In this document: in pieces, positions 22,486-31,429 of the stretch
Layout of the letters: every line of letters begins with the position of its first letter
Position numbering within the stretch: position 1 is the stretch's first letter
Assembly: GCF_937910335.1 (NCBI RefSeq)
Contig: NZ_CALEMX010000345.1
Coordinates: 1 to 37,753 of the forward strand
DNA from: an uncultured Gimesia sp.
Lineage (GTDB): Bacteria; Planctomycetota; Planctomycetia; Planctomycetales; Planctomycetaceae
Reading direction: 5' to 3'
Length of the DNA: 37,753 nt
Notes under the pieces: model-generated
Seen by the model: the letters and a program-made list of their open reading frames with translations, nothing else
The model's database searches: none
What the model was told of the DNA's origin: nothing
Position numbers and translations under genes: made by a program

Positions 22486-24231
22486 ATGACAGCAATGATT
22501 GGCATCGACCTGGGCACCTCGAATTCACTTTGTGCTGTATTCGAGGATGGCCAACCGAAATTAATTCCGAACTCACTGGGTTCCGTCTTAACGCCATCCG
22601 TAGTGAGTATTTCTGAAGATCAGCGAGTCCTGGTTGGTGCCGCGGCGAAGGAATGTCGCGTTACACAACCCGAAAGATGTGCCTGGGTATTTAAACGTCT
22701 GATGGGCACAGATCGAAAAGTAGAAATAGGAGGCCACGTTTTTAATGCCCCTGAATTGTCCAGCCTGGTCCTGAAATCTCTTAAGGAGGACGCGGAAGCC
22801 TACCTCGGAGAAGAGGTTCAGGAAGCCATTATCACTGTCCCCGCTTACTTCAACGACAATCAGCGAAATGCCACCAAGCTGGCGGGAGAACTCGCCGGAC
22901 TGAACGTCAGGCGAATTATTAATGAGCCGACAGCAGCTGCCCTGACTTATGGCTTCCATGATCGAGGGGCTGAAAAAAAATTGATCGTCATCGATTTGGG
23001 AGGTGGTACATTCGATGTAACCGCCATGGAAATTTTCGAAGGCACACTGGAAATCATCTCCACAGCAGGTGAAAGTATGCTGGGCGGCGAAGATTTCACG
23101 GATCGACTTCTTGGCCGAGTCTTGAAAGCGCAACAGATACAACTGGAAATTGCAGAGGTGAAACACCCGCTTCTCGTGTCTCGCCTTAGACAAGAATGTG
23201 AGGCTGCCAAATGTACTCTCGCAACCAACTCAGAAGCCATCATTCGCATTCCCGATATACAGGGAAAATTAGCAGAGGACGCATTGACCCACACGATTAC
23301 GCGCGATGAGTTCCTCGAAATGGTAGATCCGCTGGTAAAACGACTGGCGCGCCCGATAGCAAAAGCGGTACGTGACTCCAGAATTGCACCGACGGATTTT
23401 CATAGTGTGATACTCGTCGGCGGTGCAACCAGAATGGAAGCGGTCCGCGATTTTATTCGTTCGTTCTTTGGGGTCGAACCGCTCTGCTCACACAACCCGG
23501 ATGAAGTGGTCGCATTGGGAGCTGCCGTGCAGGCTGCATTAATGCAAGACGACAAAGCCGTTGATGACATGATTATGACCGACGTCTGCCCTTTCACTTT
23601 GGGAACGGAGATTATCAAAGAATTCGGAAGACGCAGAGTTGATGGATACTATTTCCCGATTATACACCGCAATACGACCATCCCCGTTTCACGAGAGGAA
23701 ATCGTCTACACGGCTGATCCCAATCAACGACAAGTACGCGTGGGCGTTTATCAGGGTGAGGGACGTAAAGTCGAAGACAATCTGTTTCTGGGAGAATTAG
23801 AGGTCACTGGAATTCCACCCGGTCCCTCAGGAAAACCGATCCACATCCGCTTCACTTATGATTTGAACGGCATCCTGGAGGTTGAAGCTTATCTGCCAGA
23901 AACGGGTAAAAAGTTTATGACGGTGCTGACACAGCATGCCAAACTGGATTCACGTTCTGATATCAATGCTGCTGTAGAAAAATTGCAAAAGTTGAAATTT
24001 TATCCACGTGATGACGTAAAAAACCAACATCTGATCCAGTTTGCAGAAAGGGTGATTGGAGAGGTCAGTCCGTTTCAGCGTGATGATCTGGAAATGGTCA
24101 TTGACCAATTTGAACAGTCGATGGCATCAGGAGACCGCGAGTGGTTTGAAAGGGCACGCGAAAACCTGCTGACGATCTTAGCAGAACTCGGCTTTTGTTA
24201 TGACGAAGATGATCAGGAGTTTTCACCATGA
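22486..24231 (+). CDS. hscC: Hsp70 family chaperone, HscC type
   Basis: The 581-residue protein is an Hsp70 of the HscC branch. ATPase motifs are IGIDLGTSNS (residues 5-14), RRIINEPTAAALTYGF (near 143), VIDLGGGTFDVT (168-179) and LVGGATRMEAV. HscC-like segments include FNAPELSSLVLKSLKEDAEA, the linker IMTDVCPFTLGTEI in place of the DnaK DVTPLSLG form, and NTTIPVSREE. The substrate-binding part is short, with a reduced lid, as in HscC. The Arg before IINEPTAA, which in DnaK contacts the J-domain Asp, is kept. The family start argues for the ATG at 22486 over one at 22444. Its TGA overlaps the ATG of the next gene, so the chaperone and the first A protein are coupled. Confidence 0.92.
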   Translation: MTAMIGIDLGTSNSLCAVFEDGQPKLIPNSLGSVLTPSVVSISEDQRVLVGAAAKECRVTQPERCAWVFKRLMGTDRKVEIGGHVFNAPELSSLVLKSLKEDAEAYLGEEVQEAIITVPAYFNDNQRNATKLAGELAGLNVRRIINEPTAAALTYGFHDRGAEKKLIVIDLGGGTFDVTAMEIFEGTLEIISTAGESMLGGEDFTDRLLGRVLKAQQIQLEIAEVKHPLLVSRLRQECEAAKCTLATNSEAIIRIPDIQGKLAEDALTHTITRDEFLEMVDPLVKRLARPIAKAVRDSRIAPTDFHSVILVGGATRMEAVRDFIRSFFGVEPLCSHNPDEVVALGAAVQAALMQDDKAVDDMIMTDVCPFTLGTEIIKEFGRRRVDGYYFPIIHRNTTIPVSREEIVYTADPNQRQVRVGVYQGEGRKVEDNLFLGELEVTGIPPGPSGKPIHIRFTYDLNGILEVEAYLPETGKKFMTVLTQHAKLDSRSDINAAVEKLQKLKFYPRDDVKNQHLIQFAERVIGEVSPFQRDDLEMVIDQFEQSMASGDREWFERARENLLTILAELGFCYDEDDQEFSP

Positions 24232-24893
24232 ATGAAACTCGCAAAATTGATTATGCCCGTCGTTTATTGCAAATGAATCCACTTGAGCAGACGAGAGATA
24301 TTCTTGCCTTGCGTCGTGACTTTCTGAAACCAGAATCTGAATTGGGAAATTCGATTAATGAATCTGTTTCATTCGATGACCGAAAGGAACAAACCATCAA
24401 AAACATTGATTCGCTGCGGAAAGGCTTATGGACGCTGGATAGCCAGACTCTCCGCAAGCAGATCGAAGCGATCGACATCTCCGAGCTTCCCGATCTGGCA
24501 GTATCGCTCTCGCGATTGAAAGCGATTGCTGATCACCGGGAATCTTTCCAAAAACTCCAGGAGCACCCTGACTGCTTTCCCCAGTTCTACGAACAGTTCT
24601 GTTCGTTGGTCTCTGCTTCGCCTCAAAGAATCGTCAAGCTACGCGCGGAGTTCCTGGACGCTTCGCGAAAGGGCGCCATTGATCCCCGCTACAGGAACCC
24701 GAGAGAATATTATCGCATAGCGAAAGTCATTCGACGTGAGATGCCGAAATTATACGAGCTCGAAAAACCGTGGTTGGAACAGATTATTTCAAGACGTAAA
24801 TCGGAAAATATTTTCGGGCTGAGGGAAGCGTTGCTTGCCATTTTAGCACTCCTGCTCACGTTGTGCTTTTATTTAGCTTCAAAACAAATGTAG
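24228..24893 (+). CDS. HscC-associated tail-anchored protein A1
   Basis: I do not recognise a named domain. The 221-residue protein is helical and charged, with one C-terminal hydrophobic segment (residues about 198-219, ALLAILALLLTLCFYLA) and only three residues after it, so it should be tail-anchored with the bulk in the cytoplasm. Paralogues A2 and A3 share LLQMNPLEQ at the N-terminus, RKEQTIKNIDSLRKGLWTL, LPDL and the HPxCF..FYxQFC.LV.AS block. It starts within the hscC stop codon with AGGAG 8 bases upstream. Pairing with a J-like gene recalls ybeR/ybeU beside djlB/djlC in E. coli. Its job may be to link HscC or the B protein to the membrane; this is inference. Confidence 0.75.
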   Translation: MNETRKIDYARRLLQMNPLEQTRDILALRRDFLKPESELGNSINESVSFDDRKEQTIKNIDSLRKGLWTLDSQTLRKQIEAIDISELPDLAVSLSRLKAIADHRESFQKLQEHPDCFPQFYEQFCSLVSASPQRIVKLRAEFLDASRKGAIDPRYRNPREYYRIAKVIRREMPKLYELEKPWLEQIISRRKSENIFGLREALLAILALLLTLCFYLASKQM

Positions 24894-24920: not shown

Positions 24921-26609
24921 ATGAGTGGCCCTGTCGAGCCGCAATGGGATTTGTTACCCGATTTTCCAGAAGAGTTTTTCGAACTCTCGGAAGAATATGA
25001 TCTACGTGATCTTAAACGCAAATATAACTCATATATCAGACAATTTAAGCCAGAAAAATTTCCCGAAAAGTTTCAAAAAATCCGGGCGGCCTTTGAATGC
25101 TTAAACGACGCCTTACGTTATCAGGAGCCACCTCGCTCACAGACTGTGAAAACGGATCTTCAGTTTGACTGGGACTTCAATGATGCAACGGGGCCAGATC
25201 ACCCTCCAGGCAATCTTCCAATAGATCCCCTGCAGCAACCCGATGCGCATCCACCCGGCCATCTCCACCAATCGCATGCCAGCGAGGATCTGTCTGCACA
25301 ATCGGTACCATTACATCTACACGAACAGGTTAACAGTGAGTCTCTACCAAAACTTTACGAAGATCTTCAGGCGAAAGAATTAAAAACTCCTTATGATTTT
25401 TACGCGCTCGCCGTATTCTCCGATATTCTGGAGGATCGCGAGCATTCTTTTCCGGATTGGCTACTGGCAGGGTTAAAGGTGCATCATGAAGAATCGGCTC
25501 TGTTCGAATTGCTTAGACAGTATTTCGCGACGGAACCATCCCATGAGAAAACCGTACCACTGCTGGAAACAGCTTCGCAAATCATTCGATCAGACCGATT
25601 CTACTATCTGACAGAACGGGCCTGGGACGAACAACTCAAAAGTACCCCCTTTGGTTCATTTCGCCAAAACCTCCTTTCCTGTGAGTCAAACCTGTTGGAT
25701 CATGAAGTCGATCATATATTGGTATTTTACTTACACATTTTGAAAACCGCGATCTGGAAAGCCGATGAAGACTGGATCAACGCCACGTTTTCGTTTATGG
25801 AAGAAAACTACGACCGTTTGCCATATTGGGTCGAGGAAGAGCTTGAATTTTTGTATCAGCTGAAAGAATATCGGGAGCAGCGCGTAAAGTTCCTGAATGG
25901 AAATCCCGTCAGAACCACGATAGATCAGGCCATTGTCGATTATTGTACAAAAAGCGAGCAAGACGCAGACCGAAGTTTTCTCGAGTGCCAGCACGAACTG
26001 GTTTTACTTGAAGAAGATCTACTGCGCGAATTCGAAGTTCCAGCAATCGAGTTTGAATCGATTCAGATCCTGTGGGAAAAAATAGCCTTCGATATCTATG
26101 ATCGCATCGACCCCGTAATTTTTGATGACGACGAAACAACATTAGAAAAACAAACGCGGAAGTTAGCCTATCGCATAGTGACAGAGGGTGTGGGCCGCCG
26201 GTATCGAATTATACATCACTTCAATGTAATCCTTGGCCTGGGAATGTTTGGCTCCCTTGGATTGATGGTATATTTTCTGTTATTTATTCTGGAATCGTTC
26301 TGGATGACAATCGCCAAAATCTTCGGCCTCTTATTCGCAAATTTTGTAATTTTACTTATCTATGGAATGATTGAAGACAGGTTCGTACTGAGCCTGTATC
26401 GCAAGGGATGGCGTTTTGAAATAATGCGTTTCTATCAAACAAACTGGTTTCCACTACTGGAATTGTCAGATGCACTCGAAGAGCTTAAGTCGATCAAAAT
26501 TGGAGAGGAAGAATTTGATGGTCTGGATAAAATCGCAAATTGCATGAGAAAAGACATCGGCCTTTACATTTACGTCACCGCACAACGACTATTGGCTGCC
26601 TGCCAGTGA
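24921..26609 (+). CDS. J-domain-like membrane protein B1 (HscC partner)
   Basis: The 562-residue protein begins with a J-domain-like segment (residues about 24-70): YDLRDLKRKYNSYIRQ as helix II, KPEKFPEKF at the loop where J-domains have HPD, then IRAAFECLNDALRY as helix III. A polar, His/Pro-rich linker follows (about 85-130). A long helical domain (about 140-410) includes YYLTERAWDEQL and WVEEELEFLYQL. Two membrane segments (about 435-485) and a conserved C-terminal tail ending VTAQRLLAACQ complete it. The first 425 residues probably lie in the cytoplasm. GGGAG lies 7 bases before the ATG, 27 bases after A1. It is probably a co-chaperone of HscC. Confidence 0.75.
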   Translation: MSGPVEPQWDLLPDFPEEFFELSEEYDLRDLKRKYNSYIRQFKPEKFPEKFQKIRAAFECLNDALRYQEPPRSQTVKTDLQFDWDFNDATGPDHPPGNLPIDPLQQPDAHPPGHLHQSHASEDLSAQSVPLHLHEQVNSESLPKLYEDLQAKELKTPYDFYALAVFSDILEDREHSFPDWLLAGLKVHHEESALFELLRQYFATEPSHEKTVPLLETASQIIRSDRFYYLTERAWDEQLKSTPFGSFRQNLLSCESNLLDHEVDHILVFYLHILKTAIWKADEDWINATFSFMEENYDRLPYWVEEELEFLYQLKEYREQRVKFLNGNPVRTTIDQAIVDYCTKSEQDADRSFLECQHELVLLEEDLLREFEVPAIEFESIQILWEKIAFDIYDRIDPVIFDDDETTLEKQTRKLAYRIVTEGVGRRYRIIHHFNVILGLGMFGSLGLMVYFLLFILESFWMTIAKIFGLLFANFVILLIYGMIEDRFVLSLYRKGWRFEIMRFYQTNWFPLLELSDALEELKSIKIGEEEFDGLDKIANCMRKDIGLYIYVTAQRLLAACQ

Positions 26610-26651
26610 AGTCTTTTCCTCTTTCGGTAAACTTGAACCGGTACTCCCAAC
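26610..26651 (+). repeat. Unit junction 1, nearly identical to 29010-29051
   Basis: The 42-base gap between B1 and A2 matches the gap between B2 and A3 at 40 of 42 positions, including 31 identical bases in a row ending at the ATG. The adjoining coding ends are also almost identical. This non-coding stretch is kept better than most of the coding sequence. Confidence 0.9.
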
Positions 26652-27338
26652 ATGACTGAATCTCACGAAACGGATTATCTTTTTCGAATGTTGCAAATGA
26701 ATCCACTGGATCAACCGGAAGAAATTCTTGATTTGCGTCGTGGCTTTCTAAAACCAGAAACTGATTCGAGTACGTTACTCAAAGAAGCAATTTCGTTCGA
26801 TGATCGAAGAGAACAAACCATCAAAAATATCGACGCGCTGCGGAAAATCTTATGGACGCTGGACAGCCAGACATTGAACAAGCAAATCGAAACGATCAAT
26901 ATCTTCGATTTTCCGGATCTGGTGGTCTCGTTATCTCGATTGAAAGCAGTTTCTGAACACCTGGAATCCTTTCATAAACTCCAAGATCATCCCGCTTGCT
27001 TTCCTCAGTTTTACGAACAGTTCTGCACGCTGGTCACAGCCTCGCCGCAACGAGTCGTCAAACAACGCGAGGAAATCCTGAACTCATTACGAAAGGGAAC
27101 CACTGATCCCCGCTATCGAAGTCTGAATGAATATTATCGTATCGCGAAAGTCATTCGTGCAGAGATGCCAGAACTATACGCGCTTGAAAAATCGTGGTTG
27201 GAACAAATAATAACTAGACGTAAATCGAATACTTTATTTGGGTCGGTCGTATTTAAGATTATTGAGGCAGTGATCGCCATAATTGCATTCCTGGTCGCAT
27301 TCTGCATTTTTGCTGTTGTAAAAGATATGTTTAGTTAA
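26652..27338 (+). CDS. HscC-associated tail-anchored protein A2
   Basis: The 228-residue paralogue of A1 is alike throughout. It keeps LLQMNPLDQ-like, REQTIKNIDALRKILWTLDS, HPACFPQFYEQFCTLVTASP and ALEKSWLEQII. One hydrophobic segment lies at residues about 198-224 (VIAIIAFLVAFCIFAVV), followed by KDMFS, again tail-anchored. The start follows the repeated 42-base junction. A1 and A2 are clearly closer to each other than either is to A3. Function unknown; probably the partner of B2. Confidence 0.75.
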   Translation: MTESHETDYLFRMLQMNPLDQPEEILDLRRGFLKPETDSSTLLKEAISFDDRREQTIKNIDALRKILWTLDSQTLNKQIETINIFDFPDLVVSLSRLKAVSEHLESFHKLQDHPACFPQFYEQFCTLVTASPQRVVKQREEILNSLRKGTTDPRYRSLNEYYRIAKVIRAEMPELYALEKSWLEQIITRRKSNTLFGSVVFKIIEAVIAIIAFLVAFCIFAVVKDMFS

Positions 27339-27365
27339 TTTCAAATCTGACAGTGGGAGTAGTTA

Positions 27366-29009
27366 ATGAGTGGCCCCATCGAGCCGCACTGGGAATTGTT
27401 ACCGGATCAGCCAGAAGCGTTTTTTGACCTTTCGAGTGAATATGATTTGCGTGATCTCAAAAGTAAATACAACGCATTTATCAGACAGTTCAAGCCGGAA
27501 AAGTTTCCAGAAGAATTTCAAAAAATACGAGCGGCCTATGACTGCTTGAACGATGCCTTGCGTTATCAGGAACCACCACGCTCACAAACTGTGAAATCGG
27601 ACCTGCAATTTGACTGGGATTTCAATGATCCGGCCAAACAGTTTCAGCCGCCGGAGAAACCCAATACTGTCCAAAAAGGCAAAGGACTCGCCACAGATTC
27701 CGTAGCGCTACTACTGTATAAGAAGATCAACCAAGAGTCGCTACCTAAGTTTTATGATGATCTGCAGTCGAAGGAGTCAAAAACACCTTATGAATATTAT
27801 GTGTTAGCGGTCTGCTCCGACATTCTACGAGACTCCGAACACAGCTTTCCTTACTGGCTGCTGGAAGGGTTAAAAGGGTTTCCTGAAGAACCGGCACTGT
27901 TTGAACTACTCCGGCAGTACTTCGTATCTGAACCTTTCCATGTAGAAACCGCAAAATTACTCGAAGTCACTTCGCAAGTCATCCGGTCAAATCGTTTCTA
28001 TTATCTGACGGAAAGGGCCTGGGATGAACAAATTCGAAATCGCTCCTTTGACGCTTTTCAGAAAACTCTTCTGATCTGCGAGTCAAACCTACTGGATCAC
28101 GAAGTTGATCACATGCCGGTGTTTTATTTACACATTTTAAAAACCGCGATCTGGAAAGCGGACGAAGATTGGATCAACGCCACATTTTCGTTTATCGATG
28201 AAAACTATGACCGCTTGCCTTATTGGATTGAGGAAGAATTGGAATTTTTATATCAACTGAGAGAGTACCGCGAACAACGTACTGATTTTCTGGAGGGAGG
28301 CCCGGTCAGAATATTAATTGACCAGACCATATTTGACTATTGTACAAAAAACGAACAAGCCGCAGACCAATCTTTTCTTGAGTGCCAGTACAAACTAGCG
28401 TCACTCGAAGAGGAACTGCTACGCGAATTCGAAGTTCCCGCTGCCAAGTTCGATTCGATACTGCTCCTATGGGAAAAAATTGCTGAATCTGTTTATGATC
28501 GTATTGATTCCCTGACCTTTGAAGAAGAAGGGCATTTAGTAAAGCAAAACGCCCTGCAGTTAGGTACTTGGCTCTTAACCGAAGGCCCTGGATTTAGGTA
28601 CAAATTAGTGGTAGATATTTTGTGTTACAGCATTGGGTTTACATTGTTCGGAGCATTAATTGTCGCTCTTTATTTTCTCTTTTTAATTCTTGATTCCTTT
28701 TTTTTAAGTGTGATCAAAATACTTGGCTTATTATTTGTGAGTGTGTTGATTCTGATTGTGGCTGTAAAATTCCAACACCGCTATAGTCGTAAATATTACT
28801 ACACCCATTGGCGATTCGAGATCATGAAATTTTACCAGACAAAGTGGTTCCCACTACTGGAGCTGGCTGATGCACTAGAAGAAAATAATTCCATAAAAAA
28901 AGGTCGAGAGAACTATGATGGCCTCGATAAAATAGCCGAATCAATGAGGTCGGATACGGGCCTATTCTTTTATGTCACCGCACAAAGACTATTGGCAGCC
29001 TGCCAGTGA
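27366..29009 (+). CDS. J-domain-like membrane protein B2 (HscC partner)
   Basis: The 547-residue paralogue of B1 has the same layout: J-like segment with LRDLKSKYNAFIRQ then KPEKFPEEF, a polar linker shorter than that of B1 and lacking its His/Pro stretch, the long helical domain with YYLTERAWDEQI and WINATFSFIDENYDRLPYW, two membrane segments (about 418-468) and the tail VTAQRLLAACQ. The most variable parts between B1 and B2 are the linker and the membrane segments, while the helical domain and tail are closely kept. It begins 27 bases after A2 with GGGAG upstream. Confidence 0.75.
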   Translation: MSGPIEPHWELLPDQPEAFFDLSSEYDLRDLKSKYNAFIRQFKPEKFPEEFQKIRAAYDCLNDALRYQEPPRSQTVKSDLQFDWDFNDPAKQFQPPEKPNTVQKGKGLATDSVALLLYKKINQESLPKFYDDLQSKESKTPYEYYVLAVCSDILRDSEHSFPYWLLEGLKGFPEEPALFELLRQYFVSEPFHVETAKLLEVTSQVIRSNRFYYLTERAWDEQIRNRSFDAFQKTLLICESNLLDHEVDHMPVFYLHILKTAIWKADEDWINATFSFIDENYDRLPYWIEEELEFLYQLREYREQRTDFLEGGPVRILIDQTIFDYCTKNEQAADQSFLECQYKLASLEEELLREFEVPAAKFDSILLLWEKIAESVYDRIDSLTFEEEGHLVKQNALQLGTWLLTEGPGFRYKLVVDILCYSIGFTLFGALIVALYFLFLILDSFFLSVIKILGLLFVSVLILIVAVKFQHRYSRKYYYTHWRFEIMKFYQTKWFPLLELADALEENNSIKKGRENYDGLDKIAESMRSDTGLFFYVTAQRLLAACQ

Positions 29010-29051
29010 AGTATTTTTCTCTTTCGGTAAACTTGAACCGGTACTCCCAAC
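29010..29051 (+). repeat. Unit junction 2, nearly identical to 26610-26651
   Basis: The gap between B2 and A3 has the same length (42 bases) as the gap between B1 and A2 and differs from it at two positions only. The first codons of A3 (MTESHE) match those of A2 as well, although the rest of A3 is diverged. Confidence 0.9.
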
Positions 29052-29741
29052 ATGACTGAATCTCACGAAATTGATTACCTTCGTCGACTGTTACAGATGA
29101 ATCCACTCGAGCAATCGGATGACATCATTGCGAACCGTAACAGTTTTCTACAGCATGTGGAAAATGCGACTGATTCAACGGATGAGGATATTTCGCACTT
29201 TGAACGACGAGAAATAATCGTCCAGCAAATAGATCTGTTGCGAAACTCGTTTTGGTCATTGAAAGAACAAGATCTCATGCGGCAGCTGAACGCAATTGAC
29301 ACCAGTGATTTTCCAGATCTCGATTTAGCAATCAATCGGCTTAAGAAAATTGCGACTCTTCGAAAATCCTTTAATTGCCTAAAACAGCATCCTGCCTGCT
29401 TTACACGTTTTTATGATCAGTTTTGCGCACTGGTGGTAGCCTCGTCAAAAGAGGCTGGTGACCTTCGCATGTCATTGCTCAATTCAGCTGCGCAGAAAAA
29501 TCAGAATTCTGATGGGCATCGTTCATGGGAATATAGACGCATTGCGATAGAACTCCAACGTCAATTTCCTGAACTGGCAGACCTGGAATTAATGTGCCTG
29601 AGTCAACTTGGAGAAAAACCGAAGCCCGAACCACTCAGCAGCAATTTGATCGGCATTTTGAATGGACTCTCATTCATTTGCCTCTTTGTACTTGTACTCT
29701 TCTGTCTGTTCTATTTTGGCTACGTCGCAATTACACCTTAA
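29052..29741 (+). CDS. HscC-associated tail-anchored protein A3
   Basis: The 229-residue protein has the same layout as A1 and A2 with lower similarity. It keeps LLQMNPLEQSDDI, FPDLDLAINRLKKI, HPACFTRFYDQFCALVVAS and one C-terminal membrane segment (about 198-226). The middle region (about 150-170) differs and is rich in Asn, Gln and Ser. The first six residues equal those of A2, because the start region belongs to the nearly identical junction. Function unknown. Confidence 0.72.
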   Translation: MTESHEIDYLRRLLQMNPLEQSDDIIANRNSFLQHVENATDSTDEDISHFERREIIVQQIDLLRNSFWSLKEQDLMRQLNAIDTSDFPDLDLAINRLKKIATLRKSFNCLKQHPACFTRFYDQFCALVVASSKEAGDLRMSLLNSAAQKNQNSDGHRSWEYRRIAIELQRQFPELADLELMCLSQLGEKPKPEPLSSNLIGILNGLSFICLFVLVLFCLFYFGYVAITP

Positions 29742-29752
29742 TGGAGCAATTA

Positions 29753-31429
29753 ATGAACGACACCAGTGAGCCGCAATGGGATCTGCTACCCGATCATCCC
29801 CTTGAGTTTTTTTCTCTGTCAGGGGAATTTGACATACGTGATTTGAAGCGTAGCTACAACGCTTTGATCAGGCAGTACAAGCCGGAAAAATTTCCAAACG
29901 AATTTCAAATCATTCGTGCTGCGTATGAAAAGCTTCATGATGCCCTGCGCTACCAGGAATCTCTGGGTAACGAATCTGACCAACCGGAATTCATATTTGA
30001 TTGGACTTTAACGCCACAGACAGAGCCAGGAAATCAAAAAGGTGATGGCCTGGCTGAAGTGAATCCGTCACCCGGGACATCAATAGATCAACGGCAAAAT
30101 AATAAGGCGATCGCGAAACAGACAGAATCCCCACTACATGAAAGGATCGATAACGAATCACTGGAACATCACTACCAGGTATTGCAAGCAAAAGAAACAA
30201 AAACTCCCTATGACTACTATACTCTGGCGGTAATTTCAGACCTGCTACAAAAAGAGGAACTTTCATTTGCGGACTGGTTGCTTGAAGGACTAAAGAAACA
30301 CACAGAAGAACCCGGTCTCTTCGATTTACTTCGACAGTTCCTCGCTGCAGAACATTCTCCAGAACAAATCATACGCTTGCTGAAAGCAACCTCGTATGTC
30401 ATCCGTTCTGATCGCTTTTATTATTTGACCGAAAAAGCATGGGACAATCTGATCAGAACGACTTCATTTAATGCGTTTCGAGAAACACTTGCGTCCTGCG
30501 AAGGGAATATGCGCGATGATCAAATCGATCACAAACTTGTGTTTTACTTGCATATCTTAAAACCCGCAATGTGGACCGCTTACAGCTCCTGGATTGATAA
30601 AGCTCTGGCACTGATAGAAGATCACTTCCATGATATGCCTTTTTGGGTTGAAGAAGAACTTTATTATTTAAACTGTATTCACATCTATCGTAAACAGCGT
30701 TCCCAGTTTTTAATCCGTGGCAAAATCAGAGTCATGATCGATCAGGCAATTACAGATTACTTTACTAAAAGTGAAATCGAAGCACAGCACGGTTTTCTGG
30801 AATTTCAGCAATTATTAATGATGCATGAAAAAGAGTTACAATCTGAATTTAATGCATATGAAGAAAGTCTGTTAATGCTACAAATCATCTGGGAAAAAAT
30901 TGCAGATGATGTTTATGACGCACTCGGCGATCAGAGAGTTCTCAATCAGTCTAATTCATTCGACCAACGTATTGAGCGACTGGCATCTCAATTGGTAAGG
31001 AACGGAATTACACCGGACACGAAAATGATGACCGGGATTTTCGGGGTTTCGATTGTGAATATGAGTATTATTAATATGATGGTTTTCATTCATATTTTTC
31101 TATTTGGAGAAAACTCTACCTGGTTCAAAGGAATCGAACTGACTGGTTTAATTTTGTTTGATCTCACTGCTGCATTTTTAATATCGATTGCCTGGAAATA
31201 CACGAACTATAATTTTTCGCCGGATTGGTGGAGACAAGAATTAAAGCTCTATTATCAGACCGCCAGTGATCCACTGATAGAAGTCACGAATGCATTGGAA
31301 CAAATCAGTTACATTTCTATCAAAGGAGAAAATTATAAGGGTTTCAGTAACATAGCAAACTTGATACGCAGTGATTTGAGCCTCTTCTTTTATGTGACAG
31401 CGCAACGCTTATCAAATATTTGCCAATGA
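29753..31429 (+). CDS. J-domain-like membrane protein B3 (HscC partner)
   Basis: The ATG at 29753 is chosen because TGGAG lies 6 bases upstream and because the product then starts like B1 and B2 (SEPQWDLLPDHP); the frame is open back to 29594 but that part overlaps A3. The 558-residue protein keeps IRDLKRSYNALIRQ then KPEKFPNEF, the helical domain with YYLTEKAWDNLI, two membrane segments (about 432-482) and the tail VTAQRLSNICQ. It is the most diverged B copy, yet the KPEKFP loop is unchanged. Probably a J-like co-chaperone of HscC. Confidence 0.75.
   Translation: MNDTSEPQWDLLPDHPLEFFSLSGEFDIRDLKRSYNALIRQYKPEKFPNEFQIIRAAYEKLHDALRYQESLGNESDQPEFIFDWTLTPQTEPGNQKGDGLAEVNPSPGTSIDQRQNNKAIAKQTESPLHERIDNESLEHHYQVLQAKETKTPYDYYTLAVISDLLQKEELSFADWLLEGLKKHTEEPGLFDLLRQFLAAEHSPEQIIRLLKATSYVIRSDRFYYLTEKAWDNLIRTTSFNAFRETLASCEGNMRDDQIDHKLVFYLHILKPAMWTAYSSWIDKALALIEDHFHDMPFWVEEELYYLNCIHIYRKQRSQFLIRGKIRVMIDQAITDYFTKSEIEAQHGFLEFQQLLMMHEKELQSEFNAYEESLLMLQIIWEKIADDVYDALGDQRVLNQSNSFDQRIERLASQLVRNGITPDTKMMTGIFGVSIVNMSIINMMVFIHIFLFGENSTWFKGIELTGLILFDLTAAFLISIAWKYTNYNFSPDWWRQELKLYYQTASDPLIEVTNALEQISYISIKGENYKGFSNIANLIRSDLSLFFYVTAQRLSNICQ

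Follow-up and report, generated by a model that had tools for sequence, protein, structure and literature searches.

A Lys-Pro-Glu loop at the HPD position of J-like proteins encoded beside hscC in an uncultured Gimesia sp.: a putative variant co-chaperone trigger

The window considered in this study, a 37,753-nucleotide stretch from an uncultured Gimesia sp. (contig NZ_CALEMX010000345.1), harbors hscC, which encodes an Hsp70 chaperone, followed downstream by three tandem gene pairs (A1-B1, A2-B2, and A3-B3), all on one strand according to open reading frame (ORF) translation. Each of the B proteins opens with a J-like domain of approximately 60 residues, in which the HPD tripeptide is missing and KPE is present instead, within the loop that an earlier note on this DNA had reported for all three (by translation and alignment, B1 and B2 share RQFKPEKFP, and B3 has RQYKPEKFP). 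The question raised by this locus is whether KPE represents an active variant matched to HscC, a means of binding HscC without stimulating its ATPase, or decay. Since a comparable substitution is retained in related bacteria, KPE appears to be a functional variant trigger adapted to HscC rather than a product of decay. Judging from their sequences, the B proteins are likely to represent HscC-dedicated, membrane-anchored co-chaperones with an active variant J-domain, which would stimulate HscC.

The location of KPE at the J-domain HPD position, as proposed in the earlier note, is supported by sequence alignment, by an AlphaFold model of B1, and by structure matches. A phmmer search against solved structures placed KPEK of B3 over HPDK of human DNAJA1 (E value, 0.064), and the Pfam DnaJ model (PF00226) scored B1 to B3 at 14.1 to 16.8 bits, which is below its cutoff of 27.8. 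In the model of B1 residues 1 to 75 (predicted local distance difference test score, 80), helix II spans residues 28 to 41, KPE occupies residues 43 to 45, and helix III spans residues 48 to 67, and B1 is thus predicted to form the helix II-loop-helix III hairpin of a J-domain. Most of the top 40 Foldseek matches to this model were titled J-domains or J-proteins, with weak E values (best, 0.099; all above 0.001), while VIA-align returned 6jmg (Z score, 8.2), 2ys8, a DnaJ-like domain (Z score, 7.2), and 5nro_B, the DnaJ J-domain bound to DnaK (Z score, 6.4; root mean square deviation, 2.8; 57 aligned positions). As Z scores of such size can be common among helical folds, according to a warning given by the tool, the placement of KPE rests on sequence and model together.

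The window HscC shares 41.7% identity with E. coli HscC and, like the latter, exhibits in alignment a deletion of DnaK residues 208 to 211 and Thr at DnaK position L392, the two features by which the HscC subfamily is recognized. HscC genes served as the anchors of a survey of nearby J-like proteins, which is consequently free of loop-motif bias. The search profile, in which the three loop positions were masked, was composed of eleven J-domains, among them those of B1 to B3 and of DjlB and DjlC from E. coli as well as two HPD domains from the same genome; since it also recovers the HPD-bearing domain of E. coli DnaJ (E value, 7.3e-17), it is not blind to HPD. The survey covered a class sample (148 genomes, 32 with HscC at an E value of 1e-130), a phylum sample (199 genomes, 12 with HscC, two of these already in the class sample), public genome contigs (13 loci, of which L108 to L111 and L113 entered the counts), plasmids (eight HscC-type loci from seven genera, taken among the 60 matches listed of 90 records, with two Rhizobium loci sharing identical J-like stretches), and the E. 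coli K-12 hscC locus. Candidate loci L112 and L114, with Leu instead of Thr at L392, and the archaeal loci L115 to L120, with other residues there, were rejected as HscC and excluded from the counts; at L112, an HPD J-domain adjoins a DnaK-type Hsp70.

The HscC-anchored set comprised 62 J-like proteins from 54 loci. Nine further proteins from eight loci (L101 to L107 and L146), fetched via a B or J-like match, extend it to 71 proteins from 62 loci, outside which stand those J-like proteins with no HscC-type Hsp70 in the fetched stretch (L100 and L140 to L145). HPD was found in none of the 62 HscC-anchored proteins (54 loci), although partners encoded elsewhere may exist. The loops instead read KPE (36 proteins), RPD (11), RPE (5), HPE (3), GPE (2), RAE (2), and, once each, KPH, DIE, and DPQ, such that the acid is kept in 60/62, Pro in 59/62, and Lys or Arg as the first residue in 55/62. 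Within the class alone (37 proteins, 31 loci), 30 loops read KPE, 4 RPE, 2 RAE, and 1 RPD. A K/R-P-acid loop is the rule beside HscC in the Planctomycetota genomes examined, and it is also present in several Proteobacteria; the notion that KPE is peculiar to this window was rejected, as KPE was found at many HscC loci.

Matching changes are apparent on both partners at the positions of the DnaK contacts named in PMC8215388; unreadable HscC sequences are those split or cut at contig ends. In the linked HscC proteins, the equivalent of DnaK R167 is Arg in 56 of 58 readable sequences, the exceptions being Lys in the Pseudomonas locus L122 and an apparent Ser in L126, where the hscC frame is broken and Arg occurs in another frame. 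The Q378 equivalent is Gln in 57 of 60 (Asn in the others) and the P419 equivalent is Pro in 61/61, while D211, the loss of which in HscC is already on record (PMC8215388), is deleted in 58/58, the D477 equivalent is Thr or Ser in 61/61, and the L392 equivalent is Thr in 60/60. Among the 71 J-like domains, the equivalents of DnaJ R22 (basic), Y25 (Tyr), and F47 (Phe or Tyr) are kept in every case, the K26 equivalent is basic in just 3, and the K48 equivalent is basic in 19. B resembles the canonical J-domain (DnaJ, PF00226) in its fold, loop position, Y25, R22, and F47 equivalents, and Pro, and differs from it in the absence of HPD, in the loss of the K26 and mostly of the K48 equivalents, and in its score below the Pfam cutoff. 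In these alignments, two charged contacts (D211-K26 and D477-K48) appear to have disappeared from both partners, while the central contact is kept. The Arg preceding IINEPTAA, which the earlier note had pointed out in HscC, is indeed present, and it is not specific to this HscC-B pair, since E. coli DnaK and nearly all readable HscC sequences have it. A separate observation concerns the equivalent of DnaJ M30 (B residue 40, near the end of helix II), which is Lys or Arg in 68 of the 71 HscC-linked J-domains; DnaJ has no basic residue there, and this residue is a possible HscC specificity determinant.

A precedent for the acidic residue exists in E. coli, in which the established HscC partners contain HPE, DjlB reading FHPETDPQGF and DjlC reading CHPETDPQGF. 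DjlC stimulates HscC, and DnaJ, CbpA, and HscB do not (PMC8215388, citing Kluck et al. 2002); as DjlC has Glu, the Asp-to-Glu change is compatible with activity on an HscC. Like djlB and djlC, the B genes sit at the hscC locus and encode an N-terminal J-domain in which Glu replaces Asp and the x-P-E loop is followed by a short stretch to helix III, and the duplicated pairs ybeR-djlB and ybeU-djlC beside E. coli hscC (L038) resemble the A-B arrangement. Membrane association has been reported for DjlC (PMC8215388) and is predicted for B. In contrast to the His of DjlB and DjlC, the first loop residue of B is Lys, and the upstream partner at the E. coli locus is a DUF1266 protein, which A does not match: descent of A from DUF1266 proteins was rejected (hhalign probability, 0.5%), the likeness to ybeR and ybeU being one of gene order only.

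It is proposed that the N-terminal J-domain of B would dock on ATP-bound HscC and trigger ATP hydrolysis, as HPD does on DnaK. The Glu of B, replacing Asp, would pair with the R167 and Q378 equivalents of HscC, the loop Pro would break helix II as usual, and Lys (or Arg) may replace His as the hydrogen-bond donor to the linker backbone, while the helix II and III contacts may have been retuned to an HscC without D211 and D477. With its solenoid and putative membrane helices (described below), B would tether HscC to the membrane close to its clients, and these elements may bear on client choice. The earlier note had left the choice between an active variant and binding without stimulation undecided; the former is favored because retention of Pro and the acid goes along with that of R167, Q378, and P419 in HscC and because DjlC, an HscC stimulator (PMC8215388), likewise has Glu. 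KPE is, as described above, not peculiar to B1 to B3, and sequence cannot separate stimulation from recruitment.

Several points weigh against the proposed active variant. According to a 2026 review (PMC13254874), stimulation is abolished by QPD and HPN, and the HPE of DjlB and DjlC seems to be the sole tolerated replacement of HPD (section 7). In simulations, the H33A change prevents passage to the stimulating state (PMC13012618), although the introduction of that paper states that in some systems activation is not fully abolished even when HPD is replaced by AAA. In the literature covered, neither KPE nor RPE J-domains were found to have been assayed, and the His-to-Lys step is without a reported test. 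Outside the J-domain, the body of B does not align with DjlB or DjlC, and some HscC-linked copies read GPE, RAE, DIE, DPQ, or KPH, from which it follows that the first loop residue is tolerant or that some copies are degenerate. The matching losses amount to a pattern, for which descent may account in part. Finally, five A-B pairs located away from hscC (L140 to L144) still read KPE, with HscC encoded elsewhere in the genome, a sixth J-like protein (L145) is also located away from hscC, and one relative (G004, locus L205) has an A-B pair with KPE, yet no HscC was found in its genome.

The most serious alternative, which we nevertheless consider unlikely, is that the J-like domain of B binds or positions HscC without stimulating its ATPase, as a recruiter or pseudo-J-domain protein (JDP) of the kind suggested for type IV JDPs. 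Consistent with this, His-to-Lys alters a residue found to be essential in the systems examined to date (PMC13254874), and B1 to B3 fall below the Pfam cutoff. B resembles type IV JDPs such as Pam16 in having a loop without HPD. The Pam16 loop, however, reads DKE or DKS (PMC13254874), its Pro therefore being gone, and Pam16 sits on an active J-domain (Pam18), whereas B keeps both Pro and the acid, residues expected to matter for R167. The nearest characterized partner with the same Asp-to-Glu change, DjlC, is active, and the absence of HPD among the HscC-linked proteins surveyed, subject to possible partners encoded elsewhere, also argues against a purely recruiting role.

It is considerably less probable that HscC is a mere neighbor and that the loop is kept for binding of the J-like domain to another target, e.g., A or a membrane complex, as might be suggested by the A-B pairs with no adjoining hscC (L140 to L144 and G004). 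A J-like gene is located nearby at 62 HscC-type loci, with 68 of the 71 J-like proteins encoded on the hscC strand and 60 within 1.7 kb; at the two HscC-type loci with no such gene (L082 and L131), the sequence ends approximately 240 to 260 bases past hscC. Among 59 relatives, all 16 genomes with an HscC match of at least 48% identity encode an HscC-type J-like protein, while G004 is the only one of the remaining 43 to do so; five of these have just a small PPE/PPD protein, and the linker of the 46% match in G023 marks it as DnaK-type. Such linkage, together with the retention in kind of the Hsp70-contact equivalents Y25, R22, and F47, argues for HscC as the partner of B. Two loci with an HscC match are described for their gene content: on a Pseudomonas oryzihabitans plasmid (L122), hscC and an RPD J-protein are located downstream of copper-resistance genes, E. 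coli HscC having been linked to Cd2+ tolerance (PMC8215388), and at L091 (14211-19790) the HscC match lies within a far longer open frame of approximately 1,860 codons, perhaps encoding a fusion protein.

The loop is not freely variable among homologs, as a loop survey and column ranking confirmed. Among 46 sequences of less than 85% identity (Planctomycetota and the Acidobacteriota locus L109), the loop begins with Lys (36) or Arg (10), and of 57 columns K43, E45, and P44 rank 6th, 10th, and 12th in conservation, respectively; in a wider set of 59 sequences, the corresponding ranks are 16th, 12th, and 11th. The K, P, and E codons vary synonymously among 44 linked KPE proteins. We read this as purifying selection which probably acts on basic-Pro-acid and not on KPE as such, the first loop residue appearing freer outside the planctomycetes. 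The selection that the earlier note had deduced from an identical loop in three diverged copies is thus upheld by the wider survey, while the three-copy argument is weak by itself, since, relative to B1, identity within the J-like domain amounts to 81% for B2 and 74% for B3 (65% and 43% over the whole proteins). Relaxed drift in duplicated genes is accordingly a highly improbable account of KPE: although a few distant members do vary (DIE, DPQ, and KPH), K/R-P-acid belongs to the better conserved stretches of the domain, with synonymous codon change beneath.

Another Hsp70/J-like pair of the same genome allows the loop to be viewed alongside residue 167. An Hsp70 search of this genome returned six matches, namely, DnaK, HscC, and four more on three contigs. 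One of the latter (L153:2317-3900; contig C73; 527 amino acids [aa]) carries Asp in place of DnaK R167 (VIDIINEPT) and His in place of Q378, and its downstream neighbor (L153:4021-5073) has a J-like domain reading LNSHVRKYAAGKY, in which the acid is absent (Pfam DnaJ E value, 0.0072, below the cutoff). Thirty loci, one from this genome, were fetched via this J-like protein: all 29 readable loops read HVRKYA, L191 having Glu three residues on, and the neighboring Hsp70 has Asp at 167 in 26/26 readable cases. This pairing probably represents one evolutionary event and counts once; it fits what would be expected were the loop acid retained on account of Arg at residue 167. Suppression between DnaJ D35N and DnaK R167H or R167A is known (PMC5519331 and PMC13012618), and the D167 pair would represent a charge-altered natural form of the R167-D35 contact revealed by those laboratory mutations. 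A more general reading, that each Hsp70 lineage in these bacteria has its own J-trigger code (HPD with DnaK, K/R/H-P-E/D with HscC, and acid-less HVRKYA with D167 Hsp70s), is put forward tentatively and as rather less likely than not to hold, some weight being taken off because three (L154, L168, and L169) of the nine D167 Hsp70s examined have no such J-like neighbor; the neighbor at L170 reads HVRGYA. Another Hsp70 type keeps R167 in 8/8 cases, with a VLVD- or VLID-like linker, and in seven of these (L157 to L163) a small PPE/PPD J-like protein of 98 to 132 aa is encoded 0.7 to 1.1 kb away, while the eighth locus, L164, starts 675 bases before its Hsp70. A degenerate J-like domain with QQFEAGEHA in place of the HPD loop is also encoded in the genome of the window (L155:4620-5813; contig C532), and no Hsp70 match was found in the 7.9 kb examined around it.

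The features of the window are collected in Table 1. The C terminus of A1 is hydrophobic by eye, and a family profile scan of A1 returned no family match above the cutoff. In the full-length B1 model, the J-like domain is followed by a low-confidence stretch (residues 86 to 136), taken as a disordered linker, an alpha-solenoid, two long helices (residues 425 to 456 and 460 to 507; hydrophobic by eye), and a C-terminal part of approximately 55 residues; in our reading of their hydrophobic sequence, these helices would span the membrane. A structure search with the whole B1 model gave weak matches, mostly to repeat proteins and none with an E value of 0.001 or below, and hhalign alignment of B with DjlB and DjlC was confined to J-domain columns 24 to 67.

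Table 1. Features of the hscC locus in the window
Feature	Position	Strand	Basis or remark
hscC, HscC-type Hsp70	22486..24231	+	Pfam HSP70 6.3e-140; open frame from 22444, start 22486 likely
hscC Arg codon, DnaK R167 equivalent (partner of HPD Asp)	22912..22914	+	Alignment to DnaK
hscC interdomain linker MIMTD (DnaK, VLLLD)	23569..23583	+	Alignment to DnaK
A1, 221 aa, overlapping hscC stop	24228..24893	+	Translation
B1, 562 aa	24921..26609	+	Translation, structure model
B1 J-like domain, residues 9-67	24945..25121	+	Alignment, model, structure match
B1 KPE codons, residues 43-45	25047..25055	+	Translation
A2, 228 aa	26652..27338	+	Translation, alignment
B2, 547 aa	27366..29009	+	Translation, alignment
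B2 KPE codons	27492..27500	+	Translation
A3, 229 aa	29052..29741	+	Translation, alignment
B3, start 29741 or 29753	29741..31429	+	Mechanical ORF begins 29594, within A3
B3 KPE codons	29879..29887	+	Translation

On the evidence of these alignments, the KPE loop appears to be a variant, shared across the family, of the trigger used by HscC co-chaperones. The Glu of this trigger is known from E. coli, and no description of Lys or Arg was found in searches limited to open PMC papers, nor was an account of HscC-partner loops beyond HPE (PMC13254874). Whether other deviations from HPD reflect accidents or selection is regarded as enigmatic in section 7 of that review; the K/R-P-acid rule, with its matching HscC changes, opens this question to direct tests on purified pairs. 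Moreover, annotation that relies on HPD or on the Pfam cutoff misses this class of HscC-linked putative co-chaperones.

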